This document shows positions 1 to 38,813 of a DNA stretch of 40,084 nucleotides, one piece after another. The notes under the pieces were generated by a model, which searched no databases, was not told the DNA's origin, and saw nothing but the letters and a program-made list of their open reading frames with translations. The first letter of the stretch is position 1; every line of letters starts with the position of its first letter. Made by a program: the position numbers and the translations under genes. Source of the DNA: a virus. The stretch spans positions 1 through 40,084 of IMG/VR virus record IMGVR_UViG_3300046740_000180. One strand, 5' to 3'.

Positions 1-297
1 TCGTCTACGCGGGAGAGGTTTTGCTCTACGACGGGGAGAATCCTTACGCTTTGGACACCGTTTTCCCGTTTGCCGAGTACGTCCACTACTACGTTCCGGG
101 CAAGTTTTGGGGCTTTTCGGACGTTGCTCTACTGAAATCGGCTCAGATGGTGGCCGACAAGAACATGGCGCAGGCCCTTGACGCCCAGAGAATGACTTCT
201 ATGGGCTATTTCGAGTATCCCGCCGAGGCTCTGGCCTACGCGCAGCGCGGAAACGCACCCGGGCAGGGCTTTCCGGTCCCGGTTCAGTACACGGGCC
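1..297. repeat. Left copy of the 297-bp terminal overlap
   Basis: These bases match 39788-40084 with ten substitutions (window positions 128, 131, 143, 179, 200, 231, 251, 257, 263 and 269). The first 127 bases are identical, and all ten changes are synonymous in the portal frame. This marks closure of a circular or circularly permuted genome, with two strain variants represented, and not a packaged terminal repeat. Confidence 0.9.
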
Positions 298-1858: not shown

Positions 1859-2113
1859 CTGTCAGGAACGCTTGAAGGAACCGGCCCCAATGTCCGGGGA
1901 ACGACCGACGCTTCGGCCTCGATGCTCGGCTACACGAGCATGACGCAAAATGCGACCACCAACGCCACGACCGACTATATCGGAGACGGTGGTCCAAACC
2001 CTACGTCGTCTCCCAGAAACCCACTTGAGAACATGGTGAACACTTCCAATGACACAGATGTACTGGTTGTTCCGTCTGGCGGAACGGTCGCGGACGGTGG
2101 TCCAAATCCCTAG
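1859..2113 (+). CDS. Small unknown protein, probable CTG start
   Basis: An 84-aa polar protein rich in Thr, Asn and Gly, containing the tripeptide-like repeat DGGPNP twice (mid-protein and at the C-terminus). Two starts are possible. GTG at 1850 lies inside the SD sequence AAGGAGTGA, so it is unlikely. CTG at 1859 sits 5 bases beyond that SD and is preferred. No family was recognised. The position between the head-associated pair and the scaffold suggests a structural or assembly accessory. Confidence 0.65.
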   Translation: MSGTLEGTGPNVRGTTDASASMLGYTSMTQNATTNATTDYIGDGGPNPTSSPRNPLENMVNTSNDTDVLVVPSGGTVADGGPNP

Positions 2114-2321
2114 CCCGATCTACAACACGACCGACAACGTTGCGACCAACATGGTGAACGAGTCGCACAGCATTGGCTCGATTGACGGAAGTCTGGACCG
2201 TAGCACCACGGGCTTCCCGTGCAAGTACATCGAAACTGACGATATGGGCGACAAAGCCGCCAGCGTTACCGAACTCCCTTCGGTTAGTGCTGGCCTTGAT
2301 CCCAAACAATCATCGAGGTAA
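2097..2321 (+). CDS. Small unknown protein before the scaffold
   Basis: A 74-aa polar protein. GTG at 2097 is chosen because it overlaps the preceding stop by 17 bases and lies beside GGACGGTG; an earlier GTG/ATG would overlap more. It holds the motif IPSPIYNTTDNVATNMVN. The preceding protein ends with the similar NPLENMVNTSNDTD, so the two may be distantly related. No function was recognised. It ends three bases before the scaffold start, so the genes are probably translationally coupled. Confidence 0.6.
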   Translation: MVQIPSPIYNTTDNVATNMVNESHSIGSIDGSLDRSTTGFPCKYIETDDMGDKAASVTELPSVSAGLDPKQSSR

Positions 2322-2324
2322 CTA

Positions 2325-3206
2325 ATGCCTGAAGATGTCACCCACCTGCTAGGCGGAGATCAGCCGCCGCCGCAGGAGCCGCAGGCGGAGCAGCCGCCCT
2401 CGCAAGAGCAGCCGCCCTCCGAAGCCCCGGCACCAGAAGAAACGGTTAGTTGGATCATTGGAGGCCGGGAACGACAAATCCCAGTCTCTCTAGCGCAGCA
2501 GTTTGCCAAGGCTGCAATGGACGAAGAAGACCCCGACTCGGTTCGTAACGCCCTCGCCCTAGGAAGCCGCTACAACAGCGACATGTCCCGGCAAGGCCGA
2601 GAGAACGCGCAGTTGAGGGCAAAACTCGCCCAACTTGAGGCGGCCCAGGGCGTACAGCCTATGGCCCCGGCTCAGCGACAGCCACAGCAGCCGCAGTACC
2701 AGAACCCACAGCAGCCCCCGGACCCCACGAACGATCCCGTGAACTATCTGGCGTATCGGTTCGATACCCGCCAGGAAGCACTGGAACGGAAGTTCGACGC
2801 CTACATTCAAGCGCAGCAGCAGGCCACTCTCCACCAGGAGCAGCAGAGAGAAGCCCAAGTCCTCGAACAGTCCTACAACAACTGGGCTGAGAAGAAGAAG
2901 GCGCAGGGCTTCAAGAGCGTGCCCTCCTTGGAGGAAATGGATCAGCTAGCCGCAGACCTTGAACTGGGCGCTACGAGTCTTCCCTACGACAAGGCGTTCG
3001 AGGTTGCTTGGAACGTGTACTACGGAGATCAGGTCGCACAGACCGCACAGAAGGCGGCTGTCGATAACCTTCGCAAGCCGAACGCGAAGATCGTTGTTCC
3101 TGGCGGTGGTGCGTCGAGACCGGCGCAGCCCGCAGCCAACCCAGCAGACCAACTCGGCGGAATGACTTGGGGCCAAGGCATCGAGTTCATCCCCGAAAAA
3201 CGATAA
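2325..3206 (+). CDS. Capsid scaffolding protein
   Basis: A 293-aa acidic, Gln/Pro-rich protein directly upstream of the major capsid gene. The first 45 residues are a low-complexity PPQEPQAEQPPSQEQ-type tail. A predicted helical/coiled-coil core follows (RQGRENAQLRAKLAQLEAA, then QQQATLHQEQQREAQVLEQSYNNWAEKKK). The C-terminus is short and mixed. This architecture and position are those of podovirus scaffolds, which line the procapsid interior and leave before DNA packaging. There is no visible protease domain or neighbouring protease gene. The assignment is from layout and composition. Confidence 0.8.
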   Translation: MPEDVTHLLGGDQPPPQEPQAEQPPSQEQPPSEAPAPEETVSWIIGGRERQIPVSLAQQFAKAAMDEEDPDSVRNALALGSRYNSDMSRQGRENAQLRAKLAQLEAAQGVQPMAPAQRQPQQPQYQNPQQPPDPTNDPVNYLAYRFDTRQEALERKFDAYIQAQQQATLHQEQQREAQVLEQSYNNWAEKKKAQGFKSVPSLEEMDQLAADLELGATSLPYDKAFEVAWNVYYGDQVAQTAQKAAVDNLRKPNAKIVVPGGGASRPAQPAANPADQLGGMTWGQGIEFIPEKR

Positions 3207-3220
3207 GGACGTGAGTTTAG

Positions 3221-4069
3221 ATAGGTAGCGTAACCTCAGTTACCGCCGCAACTCTAATCTCGAATCTGTGGTCCGACCAGATCGAGTACGCGGCAAACGA
3301 CGTTAGAGGCGTCGTCAACTTCATTACCGATACCGGGGAGCGCTGGTTCGGTCCCGGTGGCGGAAACATTCTGTTCCCGAACGTGGGAGCGATTGCGTCG
3401 AGCGCATACGGTGCTGGCTCGACGACCCTCACGCTCACGTCGAACACGGAAGGCGTCACCACGGTCAACCCGACCGTGATCTATACCGCCGTGGAACTCT
3501 ACGAGGACGTGCTGAATACGACCATCGTGGACGCGGTGAAGGTTTACGCGCCGGTTCTCGCGGAGGGCCTGTACCAGAACATCGAGGAAACGATCCTCTC
3601 GAAGCACCAGACGACCATTACCACGGTCGGAACGTCTTCGGCTGGCTACAACTTCCTCGAAGCGGACTTCCTTACCGGACTCGCTCAGCTTCATGCGAAC
3701 GGCAAGGACAAGGTGAAGCCGGGCAGCATCTACGGCATCTACCATCCGCTCCAGTACGACAACATGATGGCGGTGTCGAACATCGTGTCGGCGGCAGTGC
3801 GTGGGGAGTCGAACGGCCCGGCCAAGACCGGCGTCATCGGCCTCTCGAACGGCTGCAATATCTTCTTCACGTCGAACGTGCAGTTGCTCACGGCGAATAT
3901 GTGTAACCTCCTGATCGCTCCGAAGTGGCTCATTCTTGCTCGCAAGAATCGCCCGAAGATCGAGATGGAGCGCACCAATCTGGCGACTCGCGTCGTTGCC
4001 TCGACCCAGTACGGCGTTGCCGTCCAGTGGTCGAACTGCGGCGTTCGCCACGTTACTCAGTCGCTCTAG
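3221..4069 (+). CDS. Major capsid protein, start codon ATA
   Basis: A 282-aa protein following the scaffold, with long Thr/Val-rich beta segments, helical stretches and a C-terminal RTNLATRVVASTQYGVAVQWSNCGVRHVTQSL typical of HK97-fold capsid subunits. The frame is closed by TAG immediately upstream, so translation must start at or after 3221, where the codon is ATA. Ahead of it lies AAGGACGTGA, nearly the full complement of the 16S rRNA 3' end, with 6 bases between. The next NTG codons (CTG 3266, GTG 3383) would remove coding-like sequence. The product is the most abundant virion protein, so an ATA start is striking. Confidence 0.85.
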   Translation: MGSVTSVTAATLISNLWSDQIEYAANDVRGVVNFITDTGERWFGPGGGNILFPNVGAIASSAYGAGSTTLTLTSNTEGVTTVNPTVIYTAVELYEDVLNTTIVDAVKVYAPVLAEGLYQNIEETILSKHQTTITTVGTSSAGYNFLEADFLTGLAQLHANGKDKVKPGSIYGIYHPLQYDNMMAVSNIVSAAVRGESNGPAKTGVIGLSNGCNIFFTSNVQLLTANMCNLLIAPKWLILARKNRPKIEMERTNLATRVVASTQYGVAVQWSNCGVRHVTQSL

Positions 4070-4084
4070 TCGATTCACCTCGCG

Positions 4085-4108
4085 GGGGCGGGGCTTCGGC
4101 TCCGCCCC
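4085..4108 (+). terminator. UUCG hairpin after the major capsid gene
   Basis: A 10-bp GC-rich stem with one G-U pair is closed by the very stable C(UUCG)G tetraloop. No U-run follows, so it may act as a partial terminator or as an mRNA 3' stabiliser. Either would let the capsid be made in excess over the glycosyltransferase cassette downstream. Confidence 0.7.
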
Positions 4109-4120
4109 TATGGAGGCTCC

Positions 4121-4789
4121 TTGAGCCCAAAGATTGATTTAGAAAGCAATTCTGGAGAGTCGATAACGCCCGAGTACTTCGAGCATCCCACCGAGGGATG
4201 GCTTCGGTACGATCCCAGCACGCTCTACATCGACGCCAATAAGGACGGCCAGAAGCCGGTGAGCCATCCGATTGCGATGGAGGGCAAGTTCTTCGGGACC
4301 AAGCAACCGCACGTTCCGACTTGCAGCGAGCCTGGGAACGGGAACGCAGGATGCCCGAAGTGGCACGGCTGCCCTCTCAAGAAGTACATGCACGTTGGCC
4401 CCGGCAACGTCATCATGCGGAAGCACGGAACCGTGTCGATGTCGGTCTGCTATGACTACTTCGAGACTACGCGTGGCGGGCGCCCAGCGTCCCAGTTGCA
4501 TCACGGGCTGGACGGCTGGAAGTTGGACGTGGATCGCACGACCATCGACATCTACGGGCGCACCTGGGCTTTCGAGTCTGGCAAGTTGAACGTGAACTCC
4601 ACGGCCGCCGAGATCAACGCCACGAAGCCACGCAGGAACGAGATGGAGATTGGCGGCCTTCTTCCGATGTGGTGGCCCCTGATGAAGAAGAAGGGGTTGG
4701 CGCTCCCCACGCAGGCCCAGCATTACCCCGAGTTGGCCGAGGACGACGACGAACCTCCCGTGGAGAAGCCCAAGCGTGCCAAGCGTTGA
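4121..4789 (+). CDS. Unknown Cys/His-rich protein after the capsid
   Basis: A 222-aa protein starting with TTG behind GGAGG. The middle contains a cysteine cluster, CSEPGNGNAGCPKWHGCPL, with a further Cys and several His nearby, suggesting a metal-binding site. The C-terminal end is acidic then basic (EDDDEPPVEKPKRAKR). No family was recognised. It follows the capsid gene and overlaps the first glycosyltransferase by 14 bases, so it could be a minor capsid protein or a partner of the glycosylation cassette. Both are inference. Confidence 0.75.
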   Translation: MSPKIDLESNSGESITPEYFEHPTEGWLRYDPSTLYIDANKDGQKPVSHPIAMEGKFFGTKQPHVPTCSEPGNGNAGCPKWHGCPLKKYMHVGPGNVIMRKHGTVSMSVCYDYFETTRGGRPASQLHHGLDGWKLDVDRTTIDIYGRTWAFESGKLNVNSTAAEINATKPRRNEMEIGGLLPMWWPLMKKKGLALPTQAQHYPELAEDDDEPPVEKPKRAKR

Positions 4790-5528
4790 CGTAATCATCC
4801 CGACCTGGAAGAACGAATACTGGTTGAAGCGATGTCTACGAGCCTTCGCAGAGGCCAAGATGCCGGAACTCGGGAAGGTCATCGTCGTGGACAACGGCGG
4901 GGACTTCTACGAGTCCAACCACTTCACGGCCGGACTGACGACAATGGTAGTGGCTCCGGGGAAGAATCTGGGCTGGACGGGCGGCCTGTACGAGGGCCTG
5001 CAGCACTCGGATTCCGAGTACGTCATGTTCATGAACGACGACGCAGAGTTTGAGCGTATGCCGGATCGGCTCACCCTAATGCTGGAGCATTTCAATGATC
5101 CGAAGGTTGCAGCAGTGGGTCCCGCTACTGGTACTGCTATGGGTAGGCAAGCCGTGGAGGGGCCGGATACTGAGGACACTGGGGTTCTCGTCGGCTTCTG
5201 TGTACTGGTCAGACGACCTACTCTTGATGCGGTCGGGGGAGTCCTACTGGATTGGGACTTGGGAGACGACATCGACCTCTGTATCCGTTTCTCCAAGGCA
5301 GGCTATCGAATGGTTATCGACCGGAGAGTGTTCGTTTACCACCATGCTTTCAAGACTGGAGTCAAGGTCTACGGGCAGCCAAAGAAGCCCGGAGGGTGGA
5401 ACTCCATAGAGATGGTTTCGGCCACCACGCAAAGGCTCATCTTGAAGCACGGCGCTGAGGCTGTGCTGGCTGCTCTCGGGGAGGAAGCGAAGCCCCAGGG
5501 GGTCCGAACCATCACCATCGAAACGTAA
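4776..5528 (+). CDS. GT2-family glycosyltransferase
   Basis: A 250-aa GT-A fold enzyme of the rhamnosyltransferase-like GT2 type. The N-terminal VDVIIPTWKNEYWLKRCL and VIVVDNGG form the nucleotide-sugar Rossmann half. MFMNDDAEF holds the metal-binding DxD-type motif. GDDIDLCIRFSKAGYRMVIDRRVFVYHHAF matches the conserved acceptor-side segment of the family. It would move a sugar from a nucleotide donor to an unknown acceptor in the cytoplasm. It starts with GTG inside the previous gene and leads a cassette of sugar-transfer genes placed within the structural operon. Confidence 0.88.
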   Translation: MPSVDVIIPTWKNEYWLKRCLRAFAEAKMPELGKVIVVDNGGDFYESNHFTAGLTTMVVAPGKNLGWTGGLYEGLQHSDSEYVMFMNDDAEFERMPDRLTLMLEHFNDPKVAAVGPATGTAMGRQAVEGPDTEDTGVLVGFCVLVRRPTLDAVGGVLLDWDLGDDIDLCIRFSKAGYRMVIDRRVFVYHHAFKTGVKVYGQPKKPGGWNSIEMVSATTQRLILKHGAEAVLAALGEEAKPQGVRTITIET

Positions 5529-5875
5529 TGGCAATCGAGGAAAAGGAACTCCCGAACTCGAACCAATGGGAAATCAAGGCGACCGGGGCCGACATCCCCA
5601 AACTGGCTGGGATGCTCACCGAGACTGGGAACGAAGCGTACAGGGAAGCGTTCCACTCGAACGAGGGCCAGTACGTGAAGATAGCGGACCCGCAGGGGAA
5701 CCTGACCCATGTGCATCAGAGGGATGTGGAGGGTGCGTTGGCTGCGGGGTATGGGCGGGCTGGGGCGACTCCGAGGATGATAATGCCGACGGTCCCGTGG
5801 GCGCAGAAGAAGTCGGGGCCGGGGAAGCACAAGTTCCGCTACAACAAACTGACGGGCGAGATGGAGGAAGTCTGA
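5528..5875 (+). CDS. Small unknown protein within the glycosyltransferase cassette
   Basis: A 115-aa soluble protein whose ATG overlaps the previous stop (TAATG). It contains a HVHQRDVEGALAAGYGRAG segment, with a short GPGKHKFRYNKLTGEMEEV tail. No family was recognised. The tight overlaps on both sides show co-translation with the flanking glycosyltransferases. It could be a small structural protein or an acceptor/adaptor for them. Confidence 0.75.
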   Translation: MAIEEKELPNSNQWEIKATGADIPKLAGMLTETGNEAYREAFHSNEGQYVKIADPQGNLTHVHQRDVEGALAAGYGRAGATPRMIMPTVPWAQKKSGPGKHKFRYNKLTGEMEEV

Positions 5876-6549
5876 ACAAGATCGACTTGGTTCTGTGCGT
5901 TCCGATGCTTCAACGCTCCGGGCTTCACCCTGCGACCTTCTACTCTCTCTGGACGATGCGGCACGAACTCCCGGACAAAGACCACATGGTGAGCCTGTTT
6001 CCGATGGACAGGCCCCAGGCTTCGGCAAGGTCTGACGCTCTCAGGCTGGCTAGGGACATAGAGGCCGAAGCGCTCCTGTTCATCGACTCGGACATGGAGT
6101 TTCAGCCCGACCTTTACCGTCGGCTCCTGGCCGTAGATGCCGACATCGCCTGCGGGCTTTTCTGGACGAAGCGCATCCCGTCTTTCCCAACGGTAATGCG
6201 AAAGATCAAGATGGCGGACGATTCGGACTCCCTGACCCACATCATCCCCGACGGCAAGGTTCACGAAATCGACGCCTGCGGGATGGCGGCCACCCTGATT
6301 CGGAAGAACGTCATCCAGAGCGACCGATTCGAGTATCCGGCGTTCAAGCACCTTGGCTCGATTGGAGAGGACTACTTCTTCTGCCTCCACGCGAGGGACG
6401 CCGGTTTCACAATCAAGTGCGACACATCCATCAAGGTTGCTCATCGCGGGGATGTCGCCTTCAACGGCCAGCCGATCCTGACCCACCCGGACCTAAAGAC
6501 CCTCTCCTACCCGTTCGGCGGCGAGGACGGCGTACAGAACGCGGTTTGA
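5872..6549 (+). CDS. FIDSD-type glycosyltransferase, copy 1, CTG start
   Basis: A 225-aa GT-A type glycosyltransferase. ALLFIDSDMEF carries the DxD motif. ACGLFWTKRIPSFPTVM and GEDYFFCLHARDAGFTIKCDTSIKVAHRG match the two related enzymes downstream. The coding sequence can only begin near a CTG that overlaps the previous TGA as CTGA, placed 5 bases after GGAGGAAG. This mimics the common ATGA junction with C in place of A. There is no ATG, GTG or TTG at a suitable distance. It is cytoplasmic, with donor and acceptor unknown. The methyltransferase downstream overlaps by four bases. Confidence 0.83.
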   Translation: MNKIDLVLCVPMLQRSGLHPATFYSLWTMRHELPDKDHMVSLFPMDRPQASARSDALRLARDIEAEALLFIDSDMEFQPDLYRRLLAVDADIACGLFWTKRIPSFPTVMRKIKMADDSDSLTHIIPDGKVHEIDACGMAATLIRKNVIQSDRFEYPAFKHLGSIGEDYFFCLHARDAGFTIKCDTSIKVAHRGDVAFNGQPILTHPDLKTLSYPFGGEDGVQNAV

Positions 6550-7199
6550 GTCCGTCCTATTACACGATACGGAACTGGCACGAGGACAAGAAGGCCTGGA
6601 TTCCAGACACCAGAGTTTGGAAGGAACTTCGTTCCGGAGACAAAATGTGGCTTGAGTCGTTGCAGCATCCCGAGGAACTAGGCTCCCTAGTAGAACTTCT
6701 CAAAATTGCGAAAGTAAAGACGGTGCTGGAAATCGGGGCCGGACCCTGCGGAACCGCCGTCTACTTCGCTGAGGCCGTGGGGCCAGAGGGCTACGTCGTC
6801 TCGGTAGACCTCCCAGCCGACATGGGCGGCACCCCGCCACAGTACGAGCAAATGGCCAAGGCCAAGGCCGAGAACTGGGAACTGGTGCGGGGATACTCGA
6901 TTGAGCAGGGCACCGTAGAAGCCGTCAAGAAGGCCCTTGGGGGCCGCCAGGTTGGACTTTTATTCATAGACGGGGAACATACCCTGGACGCGGCACGAAG
7001 CGACTACGAGACCTACAGGCCCCTTCTAGAGAAGGACGGCATCATCGCCTTCCATGACATCACCCTACCCGAGTTGTGGCCCTTCTGGTGCGGGTTGAGG
7101 GCCAAGCGGCACCCGGTTCGGTCAATGGAGTTCATCGACAGCAAGGAGCGGATCGGGTTCGGGATCGGCGCTCTAGTGGGGCGAGATGAAGGTTTTTGA
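6546..7199 (+). CDS. SAM-dependent methyltransferase
   Basis: A 217-aa class I methyltransferase. VLEIGAGPCGTAVYFAE is the SAM-binding motif I. VVSVDLP is the acidic end of strand 2. LLFIDGEHTLDAARSDYETYRPLLEKDGIIAFHDI matches the Methyltransf_24/cephalosporin-hydroxylase-like group, often found beside sugar-modifying enzymes. The TTG start overlaps the previous stop (TTGA). Among glycosyltransferases it probably O-methylates a sugar or a glycosylated product. The true substrate is unknown. Confidence 0.85.
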   Translation: MSPSYYTIRNWHEDKKAWIPDTRVWKELRSGDKMWLESLQHPEELGSLVELLKIAKVKTVLEIGAGPCGTAVYFAEAVGPEGYVVSVDLPADMGGTPPQYEQMAKAKAENWELVRGYSIEQGTVEAVKKALGGRQVGLLFIDGEHTLDAARSDYETYRPLLEKDGIIAFHDITLPELWPFWCGLRAKRHPVRSMEFIDSKERIGFGIGALVGRDEGF

Positions 7200-7950
7200 T
7201 TGCATCCTGTTCTTCAACGAGTTCGACCTATTGGACTTACGGCTTCGGACCCTGGATTCGGTTGTAGATACCTTCGTCATCGTGGAGGCCCCGTGGACGT
7301 TCAGCGGAAAGCCGAAACTACTCTACTTCAAAGAGTTCCATGATGGGTACGGTCCCTGGCTTCACAAGATACGCCACATTCAGTTGAGCGGGGCCATTGA
7401 CGCTCAGATTCCCTGGGAACGCGAGTGGGCGAGCCGGAACGCCATGGTCGAGGGGCTTTGGGACGCAGAGGCAGACGATCTGGTGTTTCAGTCTGACACA
7501 GACGAAATCTGGAGGCCGGAGAAGCGGGACGAGTACCCCAACGATCCCATCGTCACCTACGAGCAGAGCCACAACTTCTACAATCTAAATACGACCCGGC
7601 TCCCTGAACACAAGTGGCTAGGAACTAGGCGGTGCAAGTTCGGGTCGTGGCCTGGAGGGCAGAAGCTCAGGGATTCCGTAGGGCGTAGGATCGAGAACGG
7701 GGGCTGGCACTTCTCCTACCTTGGAGACGAATACCAAGCCTCGGCCAAACTCCAGGCGTTCTCCCACACCGAGTACAGCGGTCCCGAGTACAGCGATCCC
7801 AAGAAGATTCGGCAACACATGGACGCTGGGACCGACCTGATTACTCCGCTCCAAGCCTTCTACATCCCGGTTCCAGTTGATGCGACATTCCCGAAGCCAG
7901 TCTTGGAGAACCCGGATAGATGGAAGAAGTATATCAAGCCCGTAGCCTGA
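7186..7950 (+). CDS. Glycosyltransferase family 17 protein
   Basis: A 254-aa protein whose N-terminus, FDCILFFNEFDLLDLRLRTL, is followed by VVDTFVIVEAPWTFSGKPK. This closely fits family GT17, whose eukaryotic member adds bisecting GlcNAc to N-glycans. FQSDTDEIWRPE is the expected acidic motif. It starts with ATG overlapping the methyltransferase end by 14 bases. GT17 homologues are common in phages, but their substrates are mostly unknown. Here it belongs to a five-enzyme glycosyltransferase set in the virion operon, so a virion protein is a possible acceptor (inference). Confidence 0.88.
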   Translation: MKVFDCILFFNEFDLLDLRLRTLDSVVDTFVIVEAPWTFSGKPKLLYFKEFHDGYGPWLHKIRHIQLSGAIDAQIPWEREWASRNAMVEGLWDAEADDLVFQSDTDEIWRPEKRDEYPNDPIVTYEQSHNFYNLNTTRLPEHKWLGTRRCKFGSWPGGQKLRDSVGRRIENGGWHFSYLGDEYQASAKLQAFSHTEYSGPEYSDPKKIRQHMDAGTDLITPLQAFYIPVPVDATFPKPVLENPDRWKKYIKPVA

Positions 7951-8579
7951 CCCTCATCGCTCTACCCTACGTATCGAAAGACGGCTTCGTTGGTCCCTGC
8001 GTCGAGTCTCTTCTGAACGCCATCGCAACGAAAAGCCTGGGTTCTGTGAGTTTCATGTGCATCAAGGACCGGACCCAGGTTTCAGCTAGAAATCTAGCAG
8101 CGCATAAGGCCCTACAGATCGGTGCCGACTACCTTTGGTTCATCGACTCGGACCAGGACTTCTCGGTGGATATGCTGGCTAGATTGAAGCGAGTAGACGC
8201 AGACGTAGCGTGTGCGGATATGTGGTCTAGGTCATGGCCCTCGTTTCGGATCGTGTTCGGGAAGGAGCCGGCTTGGGAAGGCGGAAAGGCCCGCTATCTC
8301 CCAGTTGGGGACGAAATAGCTAATAAGGGTTCGATAGAGAACATTGAATACTGCGGCATGGGATGCACCCTTATTAAGACTTCGATGCTAGCCAAGCTGA
8401 AGGAAGCCGAGCCGAACCAGCCATGGTTTTGGGCTGCGGACCACGGAGAGGACGCCACCTTCTGCTTCAAGGTTCTGGAGGCCGGCGGGACCGTGAAGTG
8501 CGATTTCGGCCTCAAGTCTGGACATTGGGGAAACATCAGGATGATGGGACAGGACTACACACGGAGGCCGGTTGAGTAA
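7920..8579 (+). CDS. FIDSD-type glycosyltransferase, copy 2
   Basis: A 219-aa paralogue of the enzymes at 5872 and 8572. It has LTLIALPYVSKDGFVGPCVESL at the N-terminus, YLWFIDSDQDF with the DxD motif, ADMWSRSWPSFRIV, and GEDATFCFKVLEAGGTVKCDFGLKSGHWG near the end. ATG at 7920 is chosen because the N-terminus then aligns with copy 3. An in-frame CTG at 7947, overlapping the previous stop as CTGA, is the alternative. Copies 2 and 3 are adjacent, indicating local duplication. Confidence 0.85.
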   Translation: MEEVYQARSLTLIALPYVSKDGFVGPCVESLLNAIATKSLGSVSFMCIKDRTQVSARNLAAHKALQIGADYLWFIDSDQDFSVDMLARLKRVDADVACADMWSRSWPSFRIVFGKEPAWEGGKARYLPVGDEIANKGSIENIEYCGMGCTLIKTSMLAKLKEAEPNQPWFWAADHGEDATFCFKVLEAGGTVKCDFGLKSGHWGNIRMMGQDYTRRPVE

Positions 8580-9294
8580 CGTCGAGCAGGTTCCGAAGGG
8601 TGTCACCAGCATCGCCCTTCCGTTCGTCTCCAAGCAGGGATTCACCGGAGCTACAACCCAATCTCTAATCCTTGGGATTCTGGCGGGCGGAATGAAGATG
8701 AGCAAGTTCCTGTTCCTTGGGGACCACTCCCAGGTGCAGGCCAGAAACGTAGCCTGCCAGGATGCCATCGACATCGGGTCTGAGTGGATTTGGTTTATCG
8801 ACTCGGACGCAGACTTCCCGGTAGATGCTCTAGCCAGACTCAAGGCGTGCGATTCCGACATCGCCTGTACTGATATGTGGAGCCGAAATATTCCCTCCTT
8901 CCGTACAGTGATGAGGCTGGAAGTCATCGACGGGGACAGAGCCGGGGTGCCGGTGCCTGGGAACCCGACCGGAGTAGAGGACATCGACCTGTGCGGGATG
9001 CACTGTACGCTGATCAAGGTTTCGCTTCTAAAGAAGATCAAGGACGCGTTCCCTGAAAGCCCCTGGTTCTGGAACGGGAAGAACGGCGAGGATGCGGAGT
9101 TCTGCTTCAAGGCTAAAGACCTTGGGGCAAAGATCAAGTGTGACTTCTCGATCATGTCGGGCCACTGGGGGGTCGCTAGGATGGCCGGGCAGGACTGGAG
9201 CCGAGACGCAAAGAATCAGCCGATGCATGTAGCCAATATGGAAATGATGAAGAGAATGGGAGTCAAAAACCTAAAAGAAGAAGGAGTGGTCTAG
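8572..9294 (+). CDS. FIDSD-type glycosyltransferase, copy 3
   Basis: A 240-aa paralogue of the preceding gene, sharing IALPFVSKQGFTG, QARNVA, WIWFIDSDADF, DMWSRNIPSFRTVM and GEDAEFCFKAKDLGAKIKCDFSIMSGHWG. The TTG start lies in the 8-base overlap TTGAGTAA with copy 2. It ends the glycosyltransferase cassette; the next gene is a structural-type beta protein. Three divergent copies suggest different donors, acceptors or sequential sugar additions, which the sequence cannot resolve. Confidence 0.86.
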   Translation: MSNVEQVPKGVTSIALPFVSKQGFTGATTQSLILGILAGGMKMSKFLFLGDHSQVQARNVACQDAIDIGSEWIWFIDSDADFPVDALARLKACDSDIACTDMWSRNIPSFRTVMRLEVIDGDRAGVPVPGNPTGVEDIDLCGMHCTLIKVSLLKKIKDAFPESPWFWNGKNGEDAEFCFKAKDLGAKIKCDFSIMSGHWGVARMAGQDWSRDAKNQPMHVANMEMMKRMGVKNLKEEGVV

Positions 9295-9570
9295 TTGGCG
9301 TTTTCGTACACGATCACCGGAACCCGAGACTTGCAGGGTGCGAAGTTGATTCACGGCACCTGGGACGCAACCGCTGCGACGAGCGGAACGATCACCTTTG
9401 GCGGAACTCGGGGCGGAAACCAGGGAACGCCCTACACCCTGATTGACTCAACTGTTGTCTCCAGTGTCTCGTCCACCACCATGACGGCATCGAAGATGAC
9501 CGCAACGGGAACGCTGGTTCTCACCTGTGTCTCTGGCGATGCGGGCTACTGGTCCGTCACCGTCCTGTAA
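9295..9570 (+). CDS. Small beta structural protein, copy 1 (TTG start)
   Basis: A 91-aa Thr/Gly-rich protein beginning MAFSYTITGTRDLQGAKLIHGTWDATAA and containing the block TYTLIDSTVVSSVSSTTMTASKM (positions approximate). The next gene repeats the same layout. TTG directly follows the preceding TAG, after AAGGAGTGG. It is probably a virion or decoration protein with an all-beta fold. No family was recognised. Confidence 0.78.
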   Translation: MAFSYTITGTRDLQGAKLIHGTWDATAATSGTITFGGTRGGNQGTPYTLIDSTVVSSVSSTTMTASKMTATGTLVLTCVSGDAGYWSVTVL

Positions 9571-9582
9571 GGGGGACTTACA

Positions 9583-10077
9583 ATAGCGTTCACCTATACT
9601 GAAACCGGCACCACGAATCTCGGTAACTGCCGGTTGGTCTACGGGACTTGGAGTGCCGCGAGCGTCACCGGGGGCGTCATTCCGATCTCGGTCCCGAACA
9701 CCTTCTTCCCCACGGCCCTCACCACCACGACCGCAAGCAACACCACCCTCACCACTTCCGGCTCGTATACGACCTCGGCTATCGCGGTAGGAGACTACAT
9801 CACCGGAACCGGGATTATCGACGGAACCTATGTCGCGTCGATTGAGTCGGCTACTTCGCTGACTATGAGCCAGGCGGCCACGGACTCGACGGCCACGAGC
9901 CGGACGTTCTCTCGCGCAGGCCGAAGCCCGTACTCGATCCTCACTGCCAAGGTTGTCTCCAGCACTTCTTCCACGACGATGACCGCGTGCCGTATTAGGT
10001 CGCTCTCCACGATGCAGCACCTAGACATGACCTGCGTCACCGACGACTTCGGCTACTGGTCCATCTACTGCTACTAG
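9583..10077 (+). CDS. Small beta structural protein, copy 2, ATA start
   Basis: A 164-aa paralogue of the preceding protein with a Thr/Ser-rich insertion. Both share AF.YT.TGT at the N-terminus, GTW.AA, SILTAKVVSS.SSTTMTA (copy 2 wording) and D.GYWS near the end. The frame is closed by TAA at 9568, and the paralogue alignment places Met exactly at an ATA codon, behind AAGGGGG with 7 bases between. The next TTG is 51 bases inside the shared domain. This is the best independent support for ATA initiation in this phage. The function is unknown, presumably virion. Confidence 0.82.
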   Translation: MAFTYTETGTTNLGNCRLVYGTWSAASVTGGVIPISVPNTFFPTALTTTTASNTTLTTSGSYTTSAIAVGDYITGTGIIDGTYVASIESATSLTMSQAATDSTATSRTFSRAGRSPYSILTAKVVSSTSSTTMTACRIRSLSTMQHLDMTCVTDDFGYWSIYCY

Positions 10078-10085
10078 GGGGTTAG

Positions 10086-10289
10086 TTGCCACGCAAGAAC
10101 AGCAAGGCATCGGCTCGGTGGCTTGTGAAGCCGCTCACGTGGAAGGACGTGTTTGGTAAATCGCAGTCGGCGTCACGCAACCGGGCGGTGCCGGTACGAC
10201 CATCTTCATCTACGATAACGCCTCCTCCGCCAACGGAATCGCCTACACCTTCGCGGAGATCGCAGCGGCGTTCCCAGCCGACGACGTAG
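10086..10289 (+). CDS. Short reading frame MPRKNSKASARWLVKPLTW; own gene or 5' part of the next
   Basis: TTG follows AGGGGGTTAG, a good SD. The first 25 codons (basic, then WLVKPLTWKDVFGK) look coding. After about 10160 the frame becomes an out-of-frame shadow of the next gene (Pro/Ser/Arg-rich). There are two readings. It may be a separate 67-aa product overlapping its neighbour by 130 bases. Or the two are one protein joined by a -1 shift, programmed or due to an indel, near GGTAAATC. The fused product would begin MPRKNSKASARW and run into IAVGVTQPGG. Confidence 0.4.
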   Translation: MPRKNSKASARWLVKPLTWKDVFGKSQSASRNRAVPVRPSSSTITPPPPTESPTPSRRSQRRSQPTT

Positions 10290-11452
10290 ACAACGGCACC
10301 AACCGAAAGTCCTACCGCAACAAGGTCAACATCCAGGTCGGGGAGACTGGTTCTGGTGGCTCGCTAACCTCGATTGTAGACACCGACAAGACTCTGCTAT
10401 TCGACAACTCTAGGACGCTTGTGTTCAAGTCCACCCAGACTACATCCTGGGCTTGCACTCTCGGGACCAAGGTTGGCACCGGGAACAGGGCTAGCGGGAC
10501 GGCCGGGTGCGACATCACAGCAGGAACCGCCCTCACCTTTCGCGGAAACACGAAACTCTACGGATGCACGGTTCGGCAGACAGCGAACTCCGGTATCTCA
10601 ATCACTCCAGCGACAACCGGAACCTGCGAGATAATCAACTGTCTATTCGACTCCAAGGCTACAAGTTTCTCGGCTCCACTGGCTTTTGGCAACTCAGCCA
10701 CGTTCATCGACAATATCTACAACTTGGACGTAGCCTGCTCGGTTAGTGGGCAGACCATCATAACCAACTTCTTCGCAAACAACGCGGAGAGGATAACTGT
10801 AGCGGCGTCCGGGTCGCCTACGTCGTTCTTCCTAATCTCGGCATCGGGATTCGCAATCAAGGACGTTTCCCTGTTCGGGACTCCGACGGCTGGCGACTTC
10901 GCTTGGCAGACCGGAATTTCAGGTCCATCGACTCTGGTTAGGCCAGTGTGGTCTGGAAATGCGTCTAAGTTTGGACCGTTATCGGCACCGACTTCAAGTA
11001 TGCTCACAATTGGAAGGCAGTGTTCTGAATACTGGATGTTAGATGTGAAGATTGAGGATGGGTCTGGAACCGCTATCAGCGGGATACCAGTAAGGCTTAC
11101 CGATACAGTTGGGACTGTCCAAGTCAACACCACCTCAAACTCATCTGGAGAAATATCGTTTGGGTCAGGGCTAACAGCCGAAGCTGTGATCGTTATGGAT
11201 CACTACGCTGGAAACGATTCGGCTGCCGACACAGTATACAGGCAGCGCCACCGATCCCCGTTCCTGCTTGAAGTCAACCTGCCCACGATGGCCGGATACA
11301 ACAACAACTACCAGTCCAAAAGGATGACCTTCAACTGGCCGGGATACGAGTCGGTAACAACCTCGGCTGGAACGTTCGAGGACGTGAATATAGTCATCTC
11401 TCTTAGCGACCCTCCAGGCACCCCCACCATCTGGACCGAAGCATCACTCTAA
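10160..11452 (+). CDS. Beta-helix virion protein, apparent ATC start
   Basis: A 430-aa protein. Residues 1-250 have the short repeated strands of a right-handed beta-helix (LTFRGNTKLYGCTV, TCEIINCLF). Residues 280-370 contain a carboxypeptidase-regulatory-like Ig segment (DVKIEDGSGTAISGIPVRLTDTVGTVQVNTTSNSSGEISF). The frame is closed by TAA at 10157 and then continuously coding from ATC. The SD AAGGACGTG is the same 9-mer as at the capsid gene, 8 bases before ATC. The next NTG codons lie about 235-260 bases inside. The alternative is a frameshifted fusion with the short frame upstream. It is likely an adhesin-like virion component. Confidence 0.78.
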   Translation: MAVGVTQPGGAGTTIFIYDNASSANGIAYTFAEIAAAFPADDVDNGTNRKSYRNKVNIQVGETGSGGSLTSIVDTDKTLLFDNSRTLVFKSTQTTSWACTLGTKVGTGNRASGTAGCDITAGTALTFRGNTKLYGCTVRQTANSGISITPATTGTCEIINCLFDSKATSFSAPLAFGNSATFIDNIYNLDVACSVSGQTIITNFFANNAERITVAASGSPTSFFLISASGFAIKDVSLFGTPTAGDFAWQTGISGPSTLVRPVWSGNASKFGPLSAPTSSMLTIGRQCSEYWMLDVKIEDGSGTAISGIPVRLTDTVGTVQVNTTSNSSGEISFGSGLTAEAVIVMDHYAGNDSAADTVYRQRHRSPFLLEVNLPTMAGYNNNYQSKRMTFNWPGYESVTTSAGTFEDVNIVISLSDPPGTPTIWTEASL

Positions 11453-11464
11453 GGAAAGGACACT

Positions 11465-12037
11465 ATGCCTGTTTCGTTTGAATGGGGAGAGGACTACGGC
11501 ACTCAGACCGGCTCTCCCACAAGGGGCACCACTCGGGCCAGCACGACCGAGAACGGTACCACGGTCACCAACGTAAACTGGAAGAACACGGCTGACGTTG
11601 GGACTGCTTACGGCTCGTCTGCTATCACGGCTGGCAATAACTCCTACGAGAAGTGGACGTTTGGGCGGCTTGCTGCTGGCTCTACGTCGATTGGCGCTGG
11701 CCTATTCGCCAATACCAATGGCGATATGGGCACCGGCCTTACGCTCAAGGGGACTCCCGCCTGTACTGGCGTGACTCCCCCGGTGGCCTACACCACCCCA
11801 AGCACGTCGGCCAACGCTGGCTTGAGCGTGAACATGTCCACGCACACGGTCATCGCCTCTGGTGTTGCGGTCTGGTTCGGTATCACCGGACCGCAGACGG
11901 CTAGCAAGGCAGTCTCGGATACAAGCGGGGCTGTCATCTACACGAACTATCTAGTCACCCAGTTGCAGACCACGACCTCGGCTGCATCCTCAGATACGGC
12001 CACCATCACGCTCACCTTTCAGTACGACGAAACATGA
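11465..12037 (+). CDS. Virion-type beta protein
   Basis: A 190-aa Thr/Gly/Ala-rich protein with an ATG start behind AAGGAAAGGA. It shows TRASTTENGTTVTNVNWKN and a C-terminal SAASSDTATITLTFQYDET strand, the composition of phage decoration or baseplate-like beta proteins. No named family was recognised. It lies in a run of receptor-region genes, so a tail or decoration role is inferred. Confidence 0.75.
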   Translation: MPVSFEWGEDYGTQTGSPTRGTTRASTTENGTTVTNVNWKNTADVGTAYGSSAITAGNNSYEKWTFGRLAAGSTSIGAGLFANTNGDMGTGLTLKGTPACTGVTPPVAYTTPSTSANAGLSVNMSTHTVIASGVAVWFGITGPQTASKAVSDTSGAVIYTNYLVTQLQTTTSAASSDTATITLTFQYDET

Positions 12038-12054
12038 GCCGATAGGACAATACA

Positions 12055-12462
12055 ATGTCCACCTACCGCCTAAAGTACATCTTTAGGGCTTACTACAAAG
12101 ACAAGCCCATGTACGTCCAGAACGAGGCCGACACCTCGCAGACCACGCTTGGCCGAACCGCGTGGTACGACGTTGTGAATACGGAGCCAATCGCCTTCTC
12201 GCTTGAGGGTGCTGGCCAGATGGTGCTGCTTGACCTGGAGGGTGGTCGCTTCCTTATCAACGGTGTCGCTGTTGTTGACCCGGAATGTAGGGCACAGAGG
12301 GCTGTTACGCCCAAGCGCCTGATCTACTTCCGCAGAGTCCGGCAGGGGCTTACTCACGACTTCGTTGAGAAGGAAGGTACCACCAGGGTCGCGTACCATA
12401 TCGGCTGGCAGGCCAACGACGAGGACGGAAACAATCTCAAGTACGTCATGGAGCTAGTCTAG
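12055..12462 (+). CDS. Small unknown virion-region protein
   Basis: A 135-aa mixed alpha/beta protein with an ATG start, containing YRLKYIFRAYYKDKPMYVQNEADTS, GRFLINGVAVVDPECRAQRAVTPKRLIYFRRVRQG and a C-terminal YHIGWQANDEDGNNLKYVMELV. No family was recognised. It ends immediately before the giant fibre gene (TAG then TTG), so it may be an accessory or assembly factor for that fibre. Confidence 0.75.
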   Translation: MSTYRLKYIFRAYYKDKPMYVQNEADTSQTTLGRTAWYDVVNTEPIAFSLEGAGQMVLLDLEGGRFLINGVAVVDPECRAQRAVTPKRLIYFRRVRQGLTHDFVEKEGTTRVAYHIGWQANDEDGNNLKYVMELV

Positions 12463-15400
12463 TTGTCCCGTAGATTCAACGGGTCCACGGACCTTATCTC
12501 CTGCGCTTCTCCGGCTGTTCTGGACAACCTGACGGGCGGCCTCACGATTGGGTGCTGGATTTACGCATCGAACTTCGGGGCCAACTCCAAGGGTTATATC
12601 GTTGGTAAGGGAACCTCAGACTCCACCAACACTACGACGTGGCGCATCGCCAATGCTACGTCTGGAGGGGCCGACAAGTACGCCCTACGGTTCGAGGTAA
12701 TGTACTCGGACGGATTTGGGTTGTTCCGTGAGACTGCCAATGCCTCGTTCACGCTAAATACGTGGTACTACGTCATCGTCACCTGGGGAGGCTCCAACGC
12801 CAGGACAGACATACATATGTACTCGGAGGGTGTCGAGTGTACCTACGGGGCTGGTGGAGAGCATAACGGTGGTACTACCCACGATGATTCGGCTGGCAAC
12901 TGGGTAATCGGAGAGAGGCCAGCACAGCACAACAGAACGTGGTCTGGCGATCTCTATGGGCTTAGGGCGTGGGCGTCGGTAATATCCAGCACCAACTTCG
13001 CTTCCATGAGACTGGACGGAACCGTGGGTACTCCGGTCGGCTGGTGGGCTATGAACGGGACCGCCGACCCTGAACCAGACACTTCTGGTAACGGAAACGA
13101 TGGAGTCCTAACTGGGACCACCGGCTCAAGTAACCCCCCAGCGATTGGCACGGCCCATACAAGCCAATCGATCCCAGGCACGGCCAAGATTCATGCGACC
13201 CTGACGAAGACGCTTACCGGGGTGGCCAACATCTTCCCGTCTGGCCGTCACCAGCGCCCCATCACGGGCGTAGCAGCCATAACTCCTGGGCTTGTGAACG
13301 CTACGTGGACCGCGCTACCGGCTCCAACCCAGGTGCCGTATGCCAGCCTTAGCGGAACCTACGACCCTCGCGGTTGGGACAAACTGGAGTACGACCCAAC
13401 TAGCGGCAAATTCTGGACGTGGGACGGCTATCTTGCGAGTGACAGGGCCTACACGATCTACGGAAACGCCCTGTGGCAGTACGACCAGGGAAGCAACAAA
13501 CTCATCCTCTACAAGATCATCAACTGGCAATGGACAGCCCCCACCTACGTCACGTCTCCAACTCCAGAGAACGCGGCTGACCCTACCCCATACGACCGAC
13601 ATTCGTACCAGGGAATGTGCGTGGTTCCCTCTCAGAACAAGTTGTATCTATGGGGCGGAGCGAACACTACCAAGGCGGACAACTGGAAGGCCGAGTTCTG
13701 GAGTTACGACCTAGCGGCCACACCGGGGACGGTCAATTCGTGGACCCTGATTTCAACGTCCAGCGACAGCACGCTAACCAATTCCACGACGCCTACGCTG
13801 CCCCCATACGCATCGTTCGAGCAGTGTATGGTGAACGACACGCAGAACGGGCAACTAATCGTATTCAGCGCCAGGAACGACCACGGGTTTGTGCAGGAGG
13901 GCCGGGACACCTTCACCTATAACCTGGCCGCTGGGACTTGGGCGAAGCGTGCCAACGCAAGCGGTGACCCCGGAGCGAGACTTGGGCACTCGATGTGCTG
14001 GGACTCGTCTAGGAATTGCGTCTGGATGTTCGGTGGTAGCGGCGCTTCCCCGTATCCCCAGTTGGGGAACGAACTCTGGAAGTACGTTCCGGCAACGAAC
14101 ACCTGGAGCCAGCCTACTACTACTGGAGGCCCGCCAAGGACTAGGCGTTTCGGAAACTGGGCCTACGATTCCCAGAACGATGTCTGCGTGCTGTTCGGTG
14201 GGAGCGACGTTTACAGGAACGCTGGGGATACTGCGGACCTGTCAGACAGCAGTTTCGTAGGGCTGAACGATACGTGGGTATTCCGCCCAGGCTCTCTTGT
14301 GTGGCAGCAGTTGTCCCCGTCCGCTAGCCCAACAGCATCCGAGTCGTTCGGCAACAAACTGGCCTACGATTCGGTCAACAACTACTTCGTCTACAACGCT
14401 ATGGGGACAGAGGGTAAGTTCTACCTGTTCCGATATGGTTCCACGCCACATGCTAGCCAGACGATTACTGGCAAGGCCAAGATCAAGGCTCACATCCCCC
14501 AGACCATCACGGGCGTTGCCAACATAACCCCGAACACGGCCAAGCAGACTCAGACAATCACTGGGAAGGCCAACATAGCCGCAGGCCCGCTTTCGGTTCA
14601 GATCACTGTAAGCGAGACACTTCCGCTGAGCGTCCCTGGCTTGGCTCGGTCCCTGTCTCCGGTGAGTGTTGGAATCCCGATTCCTGAGTCAGCAAATATC
14701 TCCAGCGTAAGCCAGCTTGGGATGACCGGTCCCACAGCCTACCAATTCCGAATCCTTGGAAACTACGCTAGCGGCAAAGCCAAGTGGGTGTTGTGTGACT
14801 TCCTAGATTCCGTGTCGGCTGGCGGTAGCAGTACGGCGGCAACGCTGACTAGCGGCACCGGGGCGCTCGGCTCCAACATGGCTACGGACGGGGCCACAAT
14901 CTCCGTGGACACCGGAGCGGCGGTGTTCTCGGTCGTCAAGGCCCCGTTCAAGATGTTCGATGCGGTGACCGTTGGCGGGACTTCTGTGGTGACCACTGGG
15001 GGAACCGGGGTAACGTTGCTGGTGGGTGGTATCGCCTACTCGTCTGCCAACGACAATAGCGCCACGACTACGGTAGAAGAGAACGGCCCGGTCCGAGTCT
15101 GCGTCTTGTCCAAGGGTGCGTTGAAAAACGGCGGCGGCACCCGGCTCATGGACTACACGGTGAGGCTGCACTTCTACAAGGGTAAGTCTTACTGCCGGGC
15201 CTTCGTTACACTGCGGAACGCCAAGGAGTCATCTACTCAGGCTCCAGTTGTCTTTGACTCGGTGGAAGTGTCTCTCAAGGTTGGCACTTCAGCCTCGACT
15301 TTCGTAACCAAGACCTCGCTGGACGTTTCTCCGCTTTCCATCCCGCTGTCTGCTGCGGAGACGGCCTACGCTTATCAGGCGTACTCGACAAAGTATCAGG

Positions 15401-36855: not shown

Positions 36856-37330
36856 ACTTCCAGTTGGGGAGTCTGGGGTTGAGCGGGGCCGTCTCACCGA
36901 GGATAGGCAGGACGCCCTCGCGGAGTGGTACGGGAAGTCGGAGGCCGAGAAGAAGGCTAGCGGGCTTCCCGATCCTGGGGCCGTGGCTCAGTTGCTTGGT
37001 ATCTCGGCGGCTACGGTTCGCAGGGCCAAGACGGACAAGCGGGTCATGGGGAAGATTCGGGAGCAGTTGGATCAGCAGCTTCTTTACGACGTGGTTGAGA
37101 TTCGGCCTGTTATCAAGGCTCTGGCGATGGACCCTGAGGGTAAGACGGACGTTCGGCTGAAGGCTGCACGGACCATCGAGGAGTTGGCTGGTAACTTGAA
37201 GAAGGGGCCTGGAGTAGAGATCAACACGACGAACGTTCACCCGACTGTGTGGCAGGACATGAGCGACGACCAGGTACTTGAGGCCGTCGAAAGGATTGCC
37301 AAGGAGCGCGGTTTCCGTAAGCCAGAATGA
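36842..37330 (+). CDS. terS: Small terminase subunit
   Basis: A 162-aa protein directly upstream of the large terminase. The N-terminal half has an HTH (DPGAVAQLLGISAATVRRAKTDKRVMGKIREQL) for recognising the packaging site. The second half (VVEIRPVIKALAMDPEGKTDVRLKAARTIEELAGNL) is helical, as in the oligomerisation region. It starts at GTG overlapping the previous gene by 14 bases with a weak SD. Family similarity is by architecture and position. Composition returns to the C-rich pattern of the structural genes here. Confidence 0.77.
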   Translation: MKVTKLPVGESGVERGRLTEDRQDALAEWYGKSEAEKKASGLPDPGAVAQLLGISAATVRRAKTDKRVMGKIREQLDQQLLYDVVEIRPVIKALAMDPEGKTDVRLKAARTIEELAGNLKKGPGVEINTTNVHPTVWQDMSDDQVLEAVERIAKERGFRKPE

Positions 37331-38813
37331 TGACCTAGCCCTACTCCAAGAGTACGAACGGAGGACGAAGCAACGCCCTTGGCTCGCCTACCGTTGTATC
37401 CCAGCCGTGAAGAAGTTCCACGACTCGAAGGACTTGATCCGTGTGTTGGCCGGGCCGAACCGTGGCGGCAAGACGACAGCGGGTTCATACGAACTCTTGT
37501 GCTTCGCAACCGGCTACAACCCAATTCGCAAGGAGAAGTACGAGGTACCGAACATTGTATGGGCTATTTCACTCGACTATGGAAATCTTGGCCATGTGAT
37601 GAGGGAGAAGGTGATGTCTCTCTTGCCACCGGGCTACAAGTTCTACAAGCAGGAGAATATCGTCACCCTTCCGAACAAGTCGGAGATTCACTTCAAGTCT
37701 GCCGATGCGGGAAGAGAGAAGTTTCAGGGCGCAGGGATCATGGCCGCTTGGTTCGACGAGGAGCCGAAGGGCCTAGCGGGGTCGGAAATCTTCTCGGAAG
37801 TCTATGCTCGACGGAAACCGGGCTGGCCACTGAAGATATTTATGACCTTCACCCCTCTTCAGGGGTTGTCGTGGGCCTACCGGGATTTGTGGAATGAGCA
37901 GACCCGGCGCTACCCGAGTATCAGTACATTCTCTTTCCAGTTGGATGACTGTTCGACATCCCTTGGAGGATTTCTTTCAGATGACGAAATCGAAACGATC
38001 AAAGCCGGGTACACGGAGTGGGAAAGGGAAGCCCGTGTCTACGGACGCTGGGGTCAAGTCTCAGGGAGGCCGTACTTCTCGCCCAAGCAAATCGAAGAAG
38101 CCCGCCAAAGGTCGGACAAGCCGGTCTACGGGTCGGTAAAGAAGAATGCGATTTCCGGGTATTCCTTCACCACCGACGATGCAGGGAACGTGGCCCAATT
38201 CCGTCCTCCTAGGTCCGGGGGAGACTATATCGTTGGGGTTGACGTTGGGGGTGGGGGAGGACGCGATTACACCGTCGCTACCGTCTGGGATCGACGTGAT
38301 CTGGCTGAAGTCGCGGTCTGGCGCTCTAACACTCACGATCCGGAACAATTCGCCCGAGAGCATTTGGTGCCCCTTGCCTCCTACTACAACTATGCACTCG
38401 TTGTACCAGAAACCAACGGGGAACACGGAGGAACCTGCATCTCGGTCCTGAAGAACTTCGCCTACCCCAATATCTATATGTACCAGGAGTGGAACAAGGT
38501 AAGAAACGTCTACATGGATAATTGGGGCTGGAGAACCACGGTTGGAACTAGGGGCCGGATTTTCGACTCCATCGCGCAAGCTCTCCGAGAGGGGAAGTTC
38601 ACCCCTTCCTCCCTCTTGTGTGACGAGCTATCGATGATTTCCGTAGACGAAGAGAACCGGCCCGACCATCTTGACGGATGCCACGACGACCACGTGATTG
38701 CGACTGGTATTGCTCTCACGGTCAACGCTGAGAATCCGCCTCCGAAGAAGATTCCGTACGACAAGGTGACCTATGCGTCTCCTCATGCAGAACATGAGTG
38801 GATGGGCGTTTGA
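37317..38813 (+). CDS. terL: Large terminase subunit, probable GTA start
   Basis: A 498-aa packaging motor. Walker A is GPNRGGKTT (about 46-54). Walker B with the catalytic Glu is AAWFDEEP (D147/E148). The RuvC-like nuclease has GVDVGGGGGRDYT (D309), VVPETNGEHGG and GCHDDHV (about 456-461). It translocates DNA through the portal and cuts concatemers. The coding frame has AAGGAG 10 bases before a GTA, giving MSQNDDLALLQEY. In-frame TTG codons at 37296 and 37278 exist but have no well-placed SD. GTA is preferred by SD spacing, with moderate certainty. Confidence 0.9.
   Translation, partial: VSQNDDLALLQEYERRTKQRPWLAYRCIPAVKKFHDSKDLIRVLAGPNRGGKTTAGSYELLCFATGYNPIRKEKYEVPNIVWAISLDYGNLGHVMREKVMSLLPPGYKFYKQENIVTLPNKSEIHFKSADAGREKFQGAGIMAAWFDEEPKGLAGSEIFSEVYARRKPGWPLKIFMTFTPLQGLSWAYRDLWNEQTRRYPSISTFSFQLDDCSTSLGGFLSDDEIETIKAGYTEWEREARVYGRWGQVSGRPYFSPKQIEEARQRSDKPVYGSVKKNAISGYSFTTDDAGNVAQFRPPRSGGDYIVGVDVGGGGGRDYTVATVWDRRDLAEVAVWRSNTHDPEQFAREHLVPLASYYNYALVVPETNGEHGGTCISVLKNFAYPNIYMYQEWNKVRNVYMDNWGWRTTVGTRGRIFDSIAQALREGKFTPSSLLCDELSMISVDEENRPDHLDGCHDDHVIATGIALTVNAENPPPKKIPYDKVTYASPHAEHEWMGV

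Follow-up and report, generated by a model that had tools for sequence, protein, structure and literature searches.

Genes at the Locus

The stretch of DNA analyzed here (the window) is the whole of the 40,084-base record of an uncultivated bacterial virus, IMGVR_UViG_3300046740_000180 from IMG/VR, which has a GC content of 58%. Our subject is a cassette of six genes at positions 4776 to 9294, among the virion genes, predicted to encode five glycosyltransferases and a methyltransferase; with moderate confidence, we regard a phage-encoded virion glycosylation module as its likeliest role. An initial annotation, made from the letters alone, had proposed such a system and had named a GT2 enzyme, three paralogues called after their FIDSD motif, a GT17 enzyme and an S-adenosylmethionine (SAM) methyltransferase. 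All six assignments held, with family matches ranging from 1e-6 to 9e-25. The genes all lie on the + strand, each overlapping or abutting its neighbor, with motifs intact (inserts 1 and 2 are described in the next section):

4776..5528, + strand: predicted GT2 glycosyltransferase, insert 1; PF00535, 2.1e-12; FMNDDA motif; absent at the same place in relatives
5872..6549, + strand: FID1, predicted FIDSD GT-A glycosyltransferase, insert 2; phrog_1574, 7.7e-20; model predicted local distance difference test (pLDDT) 84; A197 match
6546..7199, + strand: predicted SAM methyltransferase (Methyltransf_24), insert 2; PF13578, 3.3e-13; RMNT_CmcI, 2.5e-6
7186..7950, + strand: predicted GT17 glycosyltransferase, insert 2; PF04724, 9.1e-25; SDTDE motif
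7920..8579, + strand: FID2, predicted FIDSD glycosyltransferase, insert 2; phrog_1574, 3.2e-7; FIDSD and GED intact
8572..9294, + strand: FID3, predicted FIDSD glycosyltransferase, insert 2; phrog_1574, 1.0e-6; FIDSD and GED intact

The span of 4519 nucleotides (nt) is about 1/8.8 of the ∼39.8-kb genome, in line with the annotated figure of about a ninth. The gene for a Cys-rich protein overlaps that of GT2 by 14 nt, and GT2 is joined through TAATG to the gene for a 115-aa protein, which in turn meets FID1 at CTGA. FID1 and the methyltransferase are joined at TTGA, followed by overlaps of 14 nt (methyltransferase and GT17), 31 nt (GT17 and FID2) and 8 nt (FID2 and FID3), and FID3 is directly adjacent to the gene at 9295. 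FID1 begins at the CTG at 5872 or at a later codon; the methyltransferase most likely starts at the TTG at 6546, rather than at 6417, with its TTGA overlapping the FID1 stop codon. The FIDSD paralogues share 50% (FID2 and FID3), 40% (FID1 and FID3) and 35% (FID1 and FID2) identity. No close relatives of FID3 or of the methyltransferase were found in IMG/VR, and GT17, GT2 and the methyltransferase gave weak matches among PDB sequences.

The Enzyme Genes Form Two Inserts around a Core Gene

The cassette was compared with loci related through the adjoining capsid gene. The three neighboring genes used in this comparison are as follows (TerL, terminase large subunit):

3221..4069, + strand: major capsid protein by position, start codon unsettled; 17 homologues with 37-48% identity, after portal (and TerL where covered)
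4121..4789, + strand: Cys-rich protein, core virion-operon gene; homologue directly 3′ of the capsid gene in 17/17 relatives
5528..5875, + strand: 115-aa protein, core gene of the virion operon that separates insert 1 from insert 2; 3′ of the Cys-rich gene in 16/17 relatives

The relatives comprise 15 IMG/VR loci found with the capsid-position protein (41-48% identity) and two found with its alignment (L138 and L139), making 17, with near-copies among them (L092-L095; L096/L097). Alongside the window, 11 of these 15 loci entered the alignments of the capsid and Cys-rich proteins (L093, L094, L095 and L097 were dropped as near-copies, and L138 and L139 are not included). The single relative in which the 115-aa family does not follow the Cys-rich gene is one whose contig (L100) ends after the latter. 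None of the 17 has a glycosyltransferase between the capsid, Cys-rich and 115-aa genes, and the cassette is absent from all of them. Because the relatives keep the Cys-rich and 115-aa genes with no glycosyltransferase between, these two belong to the core of the virion operon, and the enzymes form two inserts, GT2 before the 115-aa gene and FID1, the methyltransferase, GT17, FID2 and FID3 after it. The Cys-rich and 115-aa proteins had been put forward as partners in glycosylation; by context, we rejected both as cassette members or partners, given their conservation in 16/17 to 17/17 capsid loci free of adjoining glycosyltransferases.

Profiles of phrog_1574 and GT17 matched none of the 15 first relative records, and PF00535 matched seven of these and neither of the two further ones (L138 and L139). 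Other glycosyltransferase-like open reading frames (ORFs), recognized with local profiles, occupy the gap between TerL and portal: in 14 relatives the contig spans this gap or reaches into it, and 8 of these have at least one of two kinds. The first kind matches PF00535 (3.8e-8 and 2.8e-8 in L098 and L099; 1.2e-4, below cutoff, in L103), and the second matches PF13632 (2.4e-5, below cutoff). Thus, glycosyltransferase content recurs in this lineage at another site of the same operon, which, with no carrier of the cassette itself among the 17, is the outcome of the comparison of relatives that the initial annotation had suggested.

The FIDSD Proteins Resemble STIV A197

The FIDSD proteins belong to phrog_1574, a family unnamed in PHROGs. 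We modeled FID1, as the sole paralogue, from 22 aligned sequences (pLDDT 84; predicted template modeling score 0.82), and the model has a GT-A fold. The closest solved structure is A197 of an archaeal virus, Sulfolobus turreted icosahedral virus (STIV; PDB 2c0n), with a Foldseek E of 9.6e-11, a Z of 19.4 and a root mean square deviation of 2.3 over 169 aligned residues. Further matches to the model include LH3 (Z about 18), Mnn9 (16.9), and Mimivirus R699 and COLGALT1 (about 15); LH3 and COLGALT1 are collagen glycosyltransferases. The family sequence profile alone retrieved Mnn9 (1.9e-8), A197 (2.2e-8) and COLGALT1 (7.5e-5). The DSD of the FIDSD motif, which is the DXD metal-binding motif, and the GED motif are invariant in the 22 aligned sequences, FID1, FID2 and FID3 included, and in the profile alignment the GED of A197 (chain residues 149-151) falls on the invariant GED of the family. 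FID1, FID2 and FID3 are, on motif and model evidence, predicted GT-A glycosyltransferases of the A197 type.

According to two reviews, A197 has a GT-A fold and is essential for STIV, whose coat protein is glycosylated, A197 being the suspected, unproven enzyme (PMC10551542, PMC4187194); Asp151 is its catalytic base (PMC4187194). A197 thus resembles the FIDSD proteins in its fold, its DXD motif, its GED-type catalytic Asp, its nature as a small single-domain viral enzyme and its suspected part in coat glycosylation. However, STIV is an unrelated type of virus with a double-jelly-roll coat and a single enzyme, and the acceptor is likewise unproven there.

FIDSD Genes Adjoin Head or Baseplate Genes in Other Phages

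A search with the FIDSD alignment returned at least 489 confirmed relatives, of which the best 80 loci, the closest matches, were kept; these were picked by the FIDSD gene alone, and not by head genes. Among these 80, the FIDSD gene is followed at 302-1934 nt by gp25 or gp6 in all but two of the 56 cyanomyovirus-type loci (54 of 56); of the two exceptions, one lies near a contig end and the other (L027) had no gp25 or gp6 that we could find. Placement in a head module was seen in 21 of the 24 remaining loci, with L022, L058 and L086 unassigned. In 16 of these 24, the FIDSD gene follows the major head protein gene either immediately or with one gene in between. In nine (L010, L013, L014, L015, L017, L018, L019, L021 and L024), a phrog_10 major head protein ends ∼4-100 nt upstream, and in seven (L034, L048, L049, L057, L059, L076 and L085), the upstream major head protein is of the phrog_1328 type and ends at a distance of 245-384 nt, which leaves room for one small gene. 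Three loci (L045, L072 and L087) have the FIDSD gene between TerL and portal, and two (L011 and L012) have it just 3′ of portal. The placement types are the two head-protein types, TerL-portal, portal, baseplate and the lineage of the window.

We also scanned 127 of the 128 same-strand ORFs of at least 100 aa found among 188 neighbors, omitting one FIDSD-like ORF of L011. The ORFs were called by a simple longest-ORF rule and some are spurious; by raw frequency, the commonest matches were to scaffolding, protease, major head, terminase and portal families. The gene after the FIDSD gene in L045 is a Methyltransf_24 member (3.6e-23), with homologues in L072 and L087.

Two further loci are of note. 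After the portal gene of L011 (9992-14442) stand a FIDSD gene, a GT2 gene, two methyltransferase genes and an Anp1/FIDSD-like glycosyltransferase gene. In P-SSM2 (L008:4997-7364), the FIDSD gene lies among genes annotated as phytanoyl-CoA dioxygenase and 2OG-Fe(II) oxygenase, upstream of gp25; speculatively, and by analogy with collagen lysine, such an oxygenase could create a hydroxyl acceptor.

Comparison with Known Systems

To our knowledge, few prokaryotic viruses have documented virion glycosylation, and among open-licence papers we found none in which glycosyltransferases adjoining the capsid genes of phages are treated as a virion system. Glycosyltransferases of mycobacteriophages of the Che8 type have been proposed to modify the capsid, and glycans are reported on capsid and tail tube (Freeman et al. 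2023, as cited in PMC12619734 and PMC11256854); like those of the window, these enzymes are phage encoded with a virion protein as proposed target. The F1 phage Maravista has glycosyltransferases near the genome 3′ end, as stated in PMC11256854, whereas those of the window lie in the head module, and the likeness drawn here is one of description. The cyanomyoviruses P-SSM2 and ACG-2014f, as well as MW202496, carry the same FIDSD family adjoining baseplate or capsid genes (in MW202496, second after the capsid gene), annotated as hypothetical or putative glycosyltransferase. Within the stretches examined, each has a single FIDSD gene, in contrast to the three of the window with GT2, GT17 and methyltransferase. 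MW202801, which was reached via terminase similarity and not via its glycosyltransferases, resembles the window in having glycosyltransferases and a methyltransferase soon after the capsid gene. However, it is annotated with an Fe-S oxidoreductase, PhyH and a NodB-like protein, and has no phrog_1574 or GT17 match.

Gtr-type serotype conversion works through a membrane-embedded flippase and glycosyltransferase. This system of temperate phages is unlike the window, from whose genome the tyrosine integrase family PF00589 is absent (all 14 control genomes gave a match); that search covers the tyrosine type and not other integrases. T4-type DNA glucosylation, with its base hydroxymethylase of the thymidylate-synthase family, is likewise unlike the window, because PF00303, the thymidylate-synthase/hydroxymethylase family, is absent from the genome and was detected in 9 of the 14 controls. 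Phage glycosyltransferases are well known for DNA hypermodification, as cited in PMC12619734, and the cassette might in principle glycosylate a modified base of the phage DNA. Given the absence of PF00303 and the position of the FIDSD family beside head or baseplate genes elsewhere, we consider this highly improbable. The Tet_JBP family (PF12851) had no match in the genome, nor in any of the controls.

Genome Context and Neighboring Genes

Because the first 297 bases match the last 297 at 96.6% (window 1-297 versus 39787-40084; 10 mismatches over 297 bases), forming an imperfect direct terminal repeat, the record is an essentially complete genome of ∼39.8 kb minus the repeat, terminally redundant or circular. 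The two repeat copies vary from each other, and the portal reading frame spans the record ends. A PHROG search of the window proteins identified TerL (below) and the portal protein (phrog_156, 1.9e-15); these, with matches to an internal virion protein and a RecT-type protein, indicate a podovirus-like phage. The late region, from TerL to ∼26.8 kb, makes up roughly 74% of the genome. The remaining features considered are:

37278..38813, + strand: TerL, late operon start; phrog_2, 2.1e-28
9295..9570, + strand: small Ser/Thr-rich protein (33% Ser+Thr), candidate acceptor by composition
9580..10077, + strand: small Ser/Thr-rich protein (36% Ser+Thr), candidate acceptor by composition
10160..11452, + strand: following conserved gene of the virion operon; a homologue is present wherever the contig of a relative extends this far

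The capsid label rests on the order TerL, portal, major capsid protein in the relatives and, in L138 and L139, on a match to a scaffold-like protein. One of the 12 aligned capsid members gave a weak phrog_544 major head protein match (E 0.0018); the window protein itself had no PHROG match, and the capsid alignment had none among PDB sequences. That alignment also found no relative in genome_contigs, and hence no hint of a host. Searches of annotated phages with the capsid, Cys-rich and 115-aa proteins found nothing, and a TerL search in IMG/VR recovered a single fragment. Four Cys residues are invariant among the 12 aligned Cys-rich proteins, the model of which is poor (pLDDT 47). Ser/Thr richness was rejected as proof of an acceptor, as such richness is also seen in further genes of this operon and in the small proteins of relatives. 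Rfam and tRNA scans of the window were empty, and promoter- or terminator-like sites in 2000-12500 showed no excess over shuffles. A 1710-aa protein of the virion region (12463-17595) has no PHROG match, and BLASTP against the 17 relative loci examined gave no homologue.

Discussion

Virion glycosylation by the cassette is supported by its gene content, its intact motifs, the GT-A model and an operon context that recurs in other phages. We favor this role because the FIDSD family is a neighbor of head or baseplate genes across unrelated phages; because the FID1 model and the family profile match A197, LH3 and COLGALT1; because sets of glycosyltransferases and methyltransferases recur in the head modules of other phages; because in 8 of 14 capsid relatives the TerL-portal gap holds other glycosyltransferase-like genes; and because the thymidylate-synthase family and tyrosine integrase are absent. 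The proposal of a virion glycosylation system has thus gained comparative support, from FIDSD placement, A197 kinship and the combined enzyme sets, while its glycan, acceptor and donor are presumed. The siting within the virion operon, to which the initial annotation had appealed, was confirmed as to placement but is weak evidence taken alone.

Several observations weigh against this role. Because the late region takes up so much of the genome, a late location is expected by chance, and we rejected it as proof by itself. The FIDSD loci share ancestry, so that independent placement events are few. The cassette is dispensable, because no relative carries it and 6 of the 14 relatives (L091, L096, L097, L100, L138 and L139) are without a gap glycosyltransferase. 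The insert sites, or sites like them, also accept other cargo: an antitoxin-like SocA_Panacea protein (PF13274, 5e-15) lies in the TerL-portal gap of L100 (812-1402), and a conserved methylase-like ORF lies between the Cys-rich and 115-aa genes of L104 (6273-6779). Such a methylase-like ORF, with no significant Pfam match, also lies 3′ of the 115-aa gene in L092 (6221-6907) and its near-copies. Finally, the virion-protein acceptor, the order of action, the donors, the glycan and the methyl target are all parts of the scheme that we infer.

The separation of the two inserts by a core gene, the other cargo in relatives, the absence of the cassette from all 17 and the extent of the late region are also what would be expected of unrelated cargo at permissive operon sites, in which each enzyme would have its own small-molecule or host target and no shared pathway. 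We judge this quite unlikely, as all six inserted genes overlap tightly, keep their motifs intact and encode enzymes of carbohydrate or methyl-transfer type, and comparable sets occur in unrelated phages. Somewhat less remote, though still unlikely, is a late remodeling of host surface polysaccharide (lipid-linked precursor, lipopolysaccharide or teichoic acid) that serves debris release or superinfection exclusion. GT2 resembles exopolysaccharide and galactofuranosyl-type enzymes, and the FID1 model also matches the teichoic-acid and polysaccharide enzymes TarP, TarS and RmlT (Z 13-14), a further point against action on the virion. Yet no cassette protein has a strongly hydrophobic segment (19-residue maximum hydropathy 1.53, by a crude measure), tyrosine integrase is absent, and the late head-module placement recurs across phages.

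If the cassette is a virion glycosylation module, its enzymes would be produced alongside the head proteins. Neither the Epimerase nor the NTP_transferase family has a match in the genome (both searches with 14 of 14 controls positive), and the soluble GT-A enzymes would therefore draw their nucleotide sugars from the host. The first sugar or sugars would be placed by the FIDSD enzymes on a head or decoration protein, with the capsid protein and the small Ser/Thr-rich proteins downstream as candidates; GT2 and GT17 may then lengthen the glycan chain, and the methyltransferase may cap it by O-methylating a sugar.

More interesting than the cassette itself is the wider pattern shown by the FIDSD family. 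We tentatively suggest that the family may be a widespread, A197-related family of virion-protein glycosyltransferases that adjoins head or baseplate genes in many environmental tailed phages. The placement pattern, together with the A197 fold match, yields a concrete list of phages for intact particle weighing. If the suggestion is right, sugar-coated particles would be common among tailed phages, and the five glycosyltransferases and methyltransferase of the window would build a longer, methyl-capped version of such a coat. The surface chemistry of environmental phage particles, with its consequences for adhesion and shielding, would then have been widely overlooked.

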